Origin: Emcibacter sp.
GTDB taxonomy: Bacteria > Pseudomonadota > Alphaproteobacteria > Sphingomonadales > Emcibacteraceae
NCBI GenBank assembly: GCA_016764855.1
Contig: JAESRB010000061.1
Span: forward strand, 1-33,601
Length of the DNA: 33,601 bases
Direction: 5' to 3'
The notes below the pieces were generated by a model, which was not told where the DNA came from, did not search any database, and was given only the letters and a program-made list of their open reading frames with translations. Both the position numbers and the translations under genes were made by a program. Below, in pieces: positions 30,881 to 33,601 of this stretch. Positions within the stretch are counted from its first letter, which is position 1. Every line of letters begins with the position of its first letter.

Positions 30881-32455
30881 TTAATTAAATAATTTATACA
30901 GAGAATATAGTGCTAAACCGCCTATAACGCTGCCTGTTAGGCCATATATAAATAATTTCACAGGGCCACGGCGCAGGCTTTGGCTTTGCATCTCCTGCAT
31001 TCTACGGGCGCTATTGGCTAGCATTTCCACATCATCAAGGATTTTAGGGATTCGGTTCAAGCTTTCAAGGGCGGTTTCCGCAAAATCCCGAACCTTTGCC
31101 TTTGGCCCCAGATTATCCCGCATCCATTTCTCGATGATGGGGCGGGAAGCTTCCCACATGTTGATTTCCGGGTAGAGATTAAGCGCCACTCCCTCTACCG
31201 TGACCATGGTTTTTTGCAGAAGGATAAGCTGTGGCTGGGTCTGCATATTAAAGGTTTCGGTGGTTTCAAAAAGCTGGGCCAGTAATTTGCTGACGGAAAT
31301 TTCCGCCACCGGTTTCCCGGCGATGGGGGCGCCAATGGCGCGAATGGCTTGTTTGAATTTCTCCAATGATTGATCCTGAGGTACATAACCAATATCGAAA
31401 TGAGCGCGGGCGATCAGATCATAATCCTGTGTGATAAAGCCATAAAGGATTTCGGCCAGACAGCGGCGTGTTTTTTTGTCGATCCGGCCCATGATACCGA
31501 AATCAATGGCGGTAATTTTATTATTTGGGCAAGCAAAGAGATTTCCCTGATGCAGATCCGCATGAAAGAACCCGTCGGTCAATGCCTGTGTCAGGAAGCT
31601 ATGAACCAGCCCTTCGGCCAGTTTTTTCAGGTCATATCCTGCTGTGATCATGTCTTGCTTATGGGCAAAGGGAATGCCTTCGACCAAACTGGTGCAAAGA
31701 ACGCGCCGACTGGTCAGATCCCAATCCACATCCGGGACCGCATAATCGGGATTGTTGGCGTTGTTTTCTTTTAATTCTGATGCTGCGGCGGCTTCGTACC
31801 GCAAATCCATTTCAAGGGCAATGACCTCGGAAATGGTTTCAACAATAGACGTTGGTTTCAGGCGTCGGGCCTTGCGGGAAAAACGTTCCATCATCCGGGC
31901 TAACCACAGGAAACTTTCCAGATCACGGGCGAAAGCTTTTTCAATGCCGGGCCGTAAGACCTTTACCGCCACACGGCGTCCGTCCTTGGTGGTGGCAAAA
32001 TGCACCTGCGCGATGGAGGCTGCGGCAACGGGCGTGCTGTCAAATTCCGCGAACAGGTCGTCCAGCGGTGCCGCCAGTTCCTGTTCCAGAATGCGGATGG
32101 CCTCATCACCGGGAAAGGGCGGGACTTTATCCTGAAGCCGCATCAGGTCAAGGGCCACGTCCGGTCCGACAATATCGGGACGAGTAGCCATGGCCTGCCC
32201 GATTTTAATAAAACTTGGCCCCAGAGACTGGAAAGCCTCGACTAGATTGCTATTTTTATCCTTATGGGAGTTTTTTGTGCCGAGATTGCGTAACTTTCTT
32301 AACCGGATCAATGCTTTTGGCTGTTCGCCAAATAACGACAGAAGGTCCATCAGCGCATCATGGCGGGACAGAACAAAGGCAATCCGAGTCAGGTGACTCA
32401 TATGAAGCAGGCTTTTAAACACGCTAGATTTTCCATCCTGAGAGCAGGGCGACAA
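30881..32455 (-). CDS. ubiB: UbiB family ubiquinone biosynthesis protein kinase-like (start may be 32401)
   Basis: [58 protein letters not shown]-terminal membrane helix; downstream of ubiE. Confidence 0.95.
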
Positions 32456-33215
32456 CGCCGCCGGTCATATTACGGTAAGTAACGCGCTTGAATCCGGCGT
32501 CCTCAATCATGGTCTTGAATTTCTCCTGAGATGGAAACTGGCGAATGCTTTCCACCAGATATTGGTATGATTCCCGATCGCCGGTGATCATTTCTCCGAA
32601 TCGGGGCAATAAGTGAAAACTGTAGGTGTCATATATTTTTTTCAGCAGCGGCGTATGTACTTTGCTGAATTCCAGACAGAGGAAACGTCCACCGGGTTTC
32701 AGAACCCGGTGTGCTTCGGCCAAAGCCTTATCAATATTGGTGACATTTCGGATACCAAAAGCAATGGTATAGGCCTCAAAACTGTTGTTGGGAAAGGAAA
32801 GGCATTCCGCATTGCCGCATACCCATTCAATATTCCTCAGAATGCCCCGGTCAATGGCCCGGTCTCGGCCGACTTTCAACATTTCGGCATTGATATCACA
32901 GACGGTGACTTCTGCGGCAATAGAATCAGAATTCTCACGTTTTTCTGCCGCATCAAGAAACCGAAAAGCGATATCCCCAGTGCCACCGGCAACATCCAGG
33001 AGTTTGTGTCCCGGTTCCGGGCGCAGAACCCGGATCATATCATTTTTCCACAAGCGATGCAGCCCGCCGCTCATCACATCATTCATGATGTCGTATTTCT
33101 CGGCAACACTGTCAAAGACGTTGCGAACCATGCCTTGTTTGGCCTGTTTATCGACGGTCTTGAAACCAAAATGTGTGGTTTCCTCAGTCTCTTGTTGTGG
33201 ATTTTTCTCTGTCAT
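32424..33215 (-). CDS. ubiE: Demethylmenaquinone/2-methoxy-6-polyprenyl-1,4-benzoquinol methyltransferase (ORF track start 33233)
   Basis: [62 protein letters not shown]. Confidence 0.97.
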
Positions 33216-33289
33216 GCTGACAACATAAACCACTGTGCCACGCTGTGCTAGTTTTTTAGGTGATTTTTTGGTTTAGTCTTAGGTAGGGG

Positions 33290-33459
33290 GATTTTTTGTT
33301 TAACCTCAGGCGCCAGCGCTTTGCTCAGGCTTATCCTCGCGTTGGCTCGGGCGGCCGCTTGATTTTTTTGTTTTGCCTCAAACGCCGGCGCTTCGCTCAG
33401 GCTTATCCTCGTATTAACTCGGGCGGCCGTTGGCCTTGCCTCCGCCTAGTCGGCTTCGG
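33290..33459. repeat. Two direct copies (period about 72 bp) of an intergenic repeat
   Basis: cctcaggcgccagcgctttgctcaggcttatcctcgcgttggctcgggcggccg (from 33304) vs cctcaaacgccggcgcttcgctcaggcttatcctcgtattaactcgggcggccg (from 33376), each preceded by a gatttttt(t)gttt tract. Confidence 0.9.
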
Positions 33460-33537
33460 TTATGGAAATATTTTCGGGAAGGAAAAGCAATAAGAAAGAA
33501 GCATAGCCTCTTCATCCCCCGCCGTATATACTCCGAT

Positions 33538-33601
33538 CCGAAGCCTTAAAGGCTGAGGCAAGCGCAAGTGCGCGTCCGAGTTAATACGAGGATAAGCCTG
33601 A
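33538..33601 (-). repeat. Inverted copy of the same repeat, cut by the window end
   Basis: Reverse complement starts TCAGGCTTATCCTCGTATTAACTCGG, identical over 26 nt to 33397-33422, and remains alignable through CTTGCCTC..GCCT....GGCTTCGG. Confidence 0.9.

Follow-up and report, generated by a model that had tools for sequence, protein, structure and literature searches.

What is the pair of inverted, hairpin-forming sequences at the end of an Emcibacter contig: a structured RNA, or a palindromic repeat of the mobile kind? The window, i.e., the whole stretch of 33,601 nucleotides that we analysed (contig C275, positions 1-33601, from a 3.12-Mb source genome of 289 contigs that is 78% complete), breaks off within this pair, and a preliminary description had proposed that base changes between the two copies preserve both of their hairpins, as in a REP/RAYT-type element. 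We find that the pair belongs to a dispersed mosaic family of hairpin repeats, found in many copies between genes across Alphaproteobacteria, whose members keep their structure, are inherited at fixed sites across species and have no link to RAYT. The original observation is confirmed, and its interpretation is partly supported.

The repeat lies upstream of the start of ubiE, within the divergent gap between ubiE and mutM, and its units follow one another in the order A-A-spacer-B' (Table 1). All hairpin positions reported previously (33425-33435, 33562-33573, 33444-33454 and 33542-33554) agree with the sequence, as does the inverted pair with its identical 26-nt core, which a repeat search places at 33397-33425 and 33573-33601 (29 nt, 97% complementary); the first of these copies is part of unit A2 and the second part of unit B. 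Within A2, the S2 pairs join 33407-33408 to 33421-33422 and 33411-33412 to 33417-33418, and S3 joins GGCC at 33425-33428 to GGCC at 33432-33435. In unit B, the core occupies 33554-33593, S3 reads GCGC-AAGT-GCGC (33562-33573) and S4 reads AGCC-TTAAA-GGCT (33542-33554). Two features had been overlooked, namely an extra direct unit (33292-33357) and the fact that the contig breaks off within the repeat. The extra unit, A1, shares 85% identity with A2 at a spacing of 72 bp, and where its 3' part would stand, the lead of A2 begins. The spacer of about 78 bp also recurs as a component of the element, which the preliminary description had not seen: homologous spacers, of the form TTATTGAG..CCGGGTAGAA..ATACTCC, stand between forward and reverse units at three other loci of the same genome (L030, L031 and L033).

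Table 1. Features at the right-hand end of the window (positions are those of the 33,601-nt stretch)
Feature	Coordinates	Strand	Evidence
ubiE/menG-like methyltransferase gene, neighbour of the repeat	32424..33215	-	ORF 32424-33233; translation, ATG at 33215
Truncated forward unit A1, with T-rich lead, S1 region and the core as far as the S3 5' arm	33292..33361	+	nhmmer 33295-33361
Complete forward unit A2, with T-rich lead, S1, S2, S3 (GGCC type) and S4	33364..33459	+	nhmmer 33367-33459, E 4e-26
Conserved core of A2 (model R1)	33405..33443	+	R1 match 60.1 bits, E 7.5e-18
S4 hairpin of A2, GCC-TAGTC-GGC	33444..33454	+	read directly; S4 hairpins enriched across the family
Spacer linking the forward to the reverse unit of the compound element	33460..33537	.	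homologous spacers at L030, L031 and L033, same genome
Unit B, reverse, cut by the contig end	33538..33601	-	nhmmer; R1 55.9 bits, E 2.3e-16

The window ends abruptly because many contig ends of this assembly fall inside copies of the repeat or close to them (position 33601 of the window itself, and contigs C20, C26, C62, C142, C144, C159, C213, C223 and C274 of the source genome, G000), and the repeat thereby explains why assemblies of such genomes are broken. Since one of these contigs, C213, starts inside a copy and runs on into mutM, the missing right-hand neighbour of the window is probably mutM.

A BLASTN search of positions 33290-33601 against the same genome, the check that had been suggested, returned 55 matching places, which is more than expected by chance. 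The core, represented by a covariance model (R1), gave 43 matches, and iteration of a profile over the contigs concerned gave 43 units with a consensus of about 95 nt; these own-genome counts come from genome searches together with searches of individual contigs. The consensus unit consists of a T-rich lead, GCCTCAAGCGCCGGCGCTCCGCTCAGGCT (S1), CCTCGYRTTRRCTCGGGC (S2), the 4-bp S3, TTGCC, and an S4 that ends in CGG. At its centre is a nearly invariant core of 34 nt (CCTCG-YRNNRR-CTCGGGC-hairpin-TTGCC), which holds the two small stems S2 and S3 and is flanked by two variable hairpins: S4 on the 3' side, and on the 5' side S1, a module with at least two interchangeable kinds, of which type P has GCCTCAATCGCCGGCGC...AGGC and type Q has GGGGGATAACTCCCCC...TCCCCC. 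At several loci, a conserved spacer (about 70 nt) separates two or three forward units from the one or two reverse units that come after them; at L030, L031, L033 and in the window, this yields a BIME-like mosaic of units in both orientations joined by conserved linkers. The type of S3 goes with orientation, forward units having mostly GGCC/GGCC and reverse units GCGC/GCGC. Tiny palindromes (GCTTTAGTTTACTAAAGC; CCCATAAATTAAATGGG and its variants) are inserted within hairpin loops, where they lengthen the stems without breaking them, both in S1 (L303, L318, L320 and L326) and in S3 (L314, L299 and L327).

Counts made with R1 are lower bounds, because Iodidimonas went unmatched in the run over named genomes even though its locus scores 67.6 bits. 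By this measure, 12 of the 15 other members of the genus that were searched carry from 2 to more than 30 copies each, and G005, G008 and G010 (93-97% complete) show no copy. Among 192 genomes of the alphaproteobacterial class, high copy numbers occur in few only, and 28 of 29 genomes of named carriers gave from 2 to at least 147 matches. A strict pattern for the core found 88 stretches among 84,980 bacterial and archaeal species, with titles that are nearly all alphaproteobacterial and in a few cases just 'Proteobacteria'; the named matches are all proteobacterial and nearly all alphaproteobacterial. Carriers include Emcibacter and Kordiimonadaceae MAGs, Qipengyuania and other Erythrobacteraceae, Sphingomonas, Sphingobium, Asticcacaulis, Iodidimonas, and the Rhizobiales MAG PAR1. 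The spread is patchy, as in mobile repeats; carriage by phages is unsupported, the exact core pattern being absent from viral contigs.

If the changes between copies are compensatory, pairing should persist wherever the sequence varies, and this holds at three levels. In 63 core sequences, 99.6% of the drawn pair cells are paired and three pairs change on both sides, with 29 two-sided changes vs. 5.2 +/- 1.9 in shuffles; the covariation score is 0.196, against 0.060 +/- 0.010 when shuffled (reached in 0 of 500) and at most 0.068 when slid. Among 152 non-redundant elements, S3 pairs in 148, with five types of arm. Perfect stems of at least 5 bp occur in the S4 region of 53% of these elements (8% when shuffled; 45 different arms) and in the S1 region of 58% (17% when shuffled; 53 different arms), and control flanks outside the element are near background. 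Because the elements were collected by their core alone, the S1 and S4 hairpins constitute separate evidence. Finally, in orthologous copies within the purH-gdh gap, where the flanks are conserved, S3 is GGCC/GGCC in two species and GCGC/GCGC in a third, and the arms of S2 and S1 also change together. Pairing being kept in the cores, the flanking hairpins and the orthologs alike, the compensatory change proposed from the window was right, although some of the stem swaps may have been produced by module exchange or gene conversion. Copies taken one by one show modest z-scores for folding (about -3.0 to +1.1). In overall RNA folding energy the two strands do not differ, and the asymmetry of G-U and A-C changes does not tell which strand is folded; a single-stranded DNA form might also be served by compensatory change.

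Copies occupy the same place and orientation across sister species at ffh-rpsP, 4.5S-ffh, hisS-prfA, purH-gdh and pepA-holC, and are missing there in other species. Flanks can be homologous where the 5' module differs, with type P in one species and type Q in another; at the ubiE-mutM gap itself, sister genome G013, in which tblastn located the ubiE ortholog (L319; 80% identity), has a single Q-type element vs. the P-type array of the window. Core identity at orthologous sites exceeds that of the flanks in some pairs only, and may there reflect gene conversion. Comparison of filled with empty sites at ffh and hisS revealed no target duplication, in sequences too diverged to show one. In sister species with few or no copies of this family, the same slots between genes are filled by another REP-like family that is unrelated to it (GCCTTGAGCCCGTTTCATGGTGTT-loop-AACACCGGAAACAAAAC), as at the ffh flanks of G006, G008, G014 and G011 (L262, L263, L260 and L269, respectively); none of the Y1_Tnp genes searched had a copy of this other family nearby.

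Most copies are situated between ORFs. At 90 non-redundant sites with clear neighbours (genes being called by a simple longest-ORF rule), 42 lie between convergent genes, 6 between divergent genes, 30 between tandem genes with the reverse strand as the sense strand, and 12 between tandem genes with the forward strand as the sense strand; this bias in tandem orientation stems mainly from the Emcibacter-like group, the ratio in other orders being 8:6. Between tandem genes, the end of the element, as in ...GATTGAGGCAAAACTAAAATG, is often just 10-20 nt away from the start codon that follows, and near many start codons its GAGG is the sole visible SD-like stretch. Copies also reside in rRNA operons: Sphingobium has one in the 16S-tRNA spacer, Iodidimonas has one between its two spacer tRNAs, and Emcibacter-like genomes have them in 23S-5S spacers and one 16S leader. 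Such copies, which occur in several genera (L215, 3001-3084; L066, 1000-1039; and L301, L302, L321 and L331-L333), are surely transcribed. In G011, identical copies are present at three places that share one rRNA-flanked sequence.

On balance, the ubiE-mutM site is one site of a dispersed BIME-like mosaic repeat, and we consider it probable that its units act as RNA hairpins at the 3' ends of mRNAs and between cistrons. Under this model, units would be transcribed with the neighbouring gene, and the resulting chain of G+C-rich hairpins, located at the 3' end of an mRNA or in an intercistronic region, might protect the upstream message. Between tandem genes, the outer end of the element (GAGG followed by an A-rich stretch) could also provide the gene that follows with its ribosome-binding region. 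The repeat would have spread in trans through a putative mover, together with gene conversion between copies.

The main rival, a possible but clearly less probable one, is that the repeat is purely selfish: a non-autonomous, MITE- or REPIN-like element whose hairpins are kept for recognition as single strands by a transposase or recombinase, and whose placement simply marks the sites at which insertions are tolerated. Such an element could account for the patchy distribution both between and within genera, for the arrays and inverted pairs of units, and for the situation in Asticcacaulis sp. AC402 (L218-L227), where the core forms part of a longer repeat, near-identical between its copies and ending in TATACCAA...TTGGTATA, and gives at least 147 matches, many of them near-identical. 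However, if the copies were of use only to a mobile element, those at inherited sites would be expected to decay neutrally unless repaired by gene conversion, and they are structurally intact. Nor does an obvious mover accompany them: Y1_Tnp does not track the repeat, and the protein families that recur beside copies are housekeeping only, with no transposase or other mobile-element protein among them.

The start-proximal copies raise another explanation, which we regard as unlikely, that the repeat is a cis-regulatory RNA (a switch or thermosensor that sequesters the ribosome-binding site) copied to many genes, with the GAGG of tandem pairs in the outer arm of S1. Consistent with such a role, copies ending in ...GATTGAGGCAAAACTAAAATG place the core 40-48 nt from the start codon of ffh, holC and other genes, in several species as well as in other orders. 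Yet convergent gaps, which have no downstream start codon to control, make up nearly half of the sites, and the GAGG is not consistently sequestered in predicted folds. An outer stem closing the whole element, hinted at by one fold, was not clearly above cross-paired controls (13.8 vs. 13.2) and was rejected.

Short palindromic repeats are usually explained by way of RAYTs, and the suggestion that the repeat is a classical REP/BIME family with a RAYT as its mover agrees with its forward/reverse mosaic, its preference for the 3' side of genes, and its compensatory hairpin changes. The REP-like architecture has stood up to analysis, but the RAYT link has not. A search for PF01797 (Y1_Tnp) in the source genome, itself 78% complete, found none, and the family is also absent from the copy-rich genomes G035, G196 and G202 (98-100% complete, 7-34 copies) but present in the copy-free sisters G008 and G010. 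Moreover, the core was recovered near Y1_Tnp genes at none of 20 loci. Among 152 elements, most have no GTAG or GTGG at a fixed place (CTAC at -4 and GTGG at -16 in only 17 each). The absence of Y1_Tnp from copy-rich genomes, its presence in copy-free ones and the lack of the core at the 20 loci speak against a RAYT as the mover, and we consider this largely refuted reading very improbable. Least probable of all is a bidirectional intrinsic terminator, which would suit the strong hairpins and the favoured convergent gaps, but on neither strand do the outer hairpins lead into a U-run, and the T-run lies 5' of the unit with no hairpin before it in most of the copies inspected.

A more ambitious version of the favoured model, which we offer as speculation and think rather unlikely, is that the family represents a class-wide RNA element: a module spread as a repeat and then retained at 3' ends and between cistrons, where it would stabilise the upstream message and supply the next gene with a ribosome-binding site that could be masked, its strongly constrained core probably being recognised by a specific cellular RNA-binding protein or nuclease. 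Alphaproteobacterial palindromic repeats have so far been left without a mover. Because the core of this family spans several orders, compensatory changes are visible between orthologs, modules are exchanged, and presence and absence are clean among sister species, it provides a good system in which to learn whether repeats of this sort behave as parasites or have become domesticated as RNA parts, and by what a conserved core is recognised when there is no transposase.

Neither the element in the window nor loci from several orders matched any Rfam 15 family over the element, at the gathering score or at a relaxed E-value. Literature searches with the core string and by topic, whose coverage leaves out most subscription journals, gave no description of the repeat. 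Among known systems, MITEs and small repeats that are transcribed, such as Correia/NEMIS, ERIC and RUP, are non-autonomous, intergenic and hairpin-forming, and some such elements alter mRNA stability. The present family resembles these in being intergenic, hairpin-forming and non-autonomous, but it differs from them in that no terminal inverted repeats are common to its members outside the Asticcacaulis AC402 version (TATACCAA/TTGGTATA) and that the core is common to several orders; target duplication was not seen at the diverged sites compared.

Its closest counterparts are of the REP/BIME kind, of which it is a variant, one with a testable functional case. As described (PMC2817692, PMC3116915, PMC3733652), BIMEs and GTAG REPs share with it short palindromic units in a direct and inverted mosaic, intergenic locations mostly 3' of genes, and stems kept through compensatory changes. 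They consist, by the same accounts, of one palindrome of 20-40 bp, whereas here a chain of hairpins is built around a long, near-invariant core; and unlike GTAG REPs, the family has neither a RAYT association nor a conserved GTAG/GTGG tag. RAYT-linked REPs with abundant copies are found in gammaproteobacteria (PMC2817692). CGTC REPs are described as predominating in alpha-Proteobacteria without a dedicated transposase, and as having a CGTC, TGTC or CCTC tag and, after it, a stem of 8-9 bp whose first pairs are A-T (PMC3733652). By this description they differ from our elements, in which S3 is a 4-bp G+C stem, S4 is mostly 5-7 bp of free sequence, and no tag is fixed (CGTC is scattered over the 152 elements, with no conserved position). 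They nevertheless resemble the present family in being alphaproteobacterial, spread over many orders, hairpin-forming and without transposase association (PMC3733652), and a remote relation between the two is possible.
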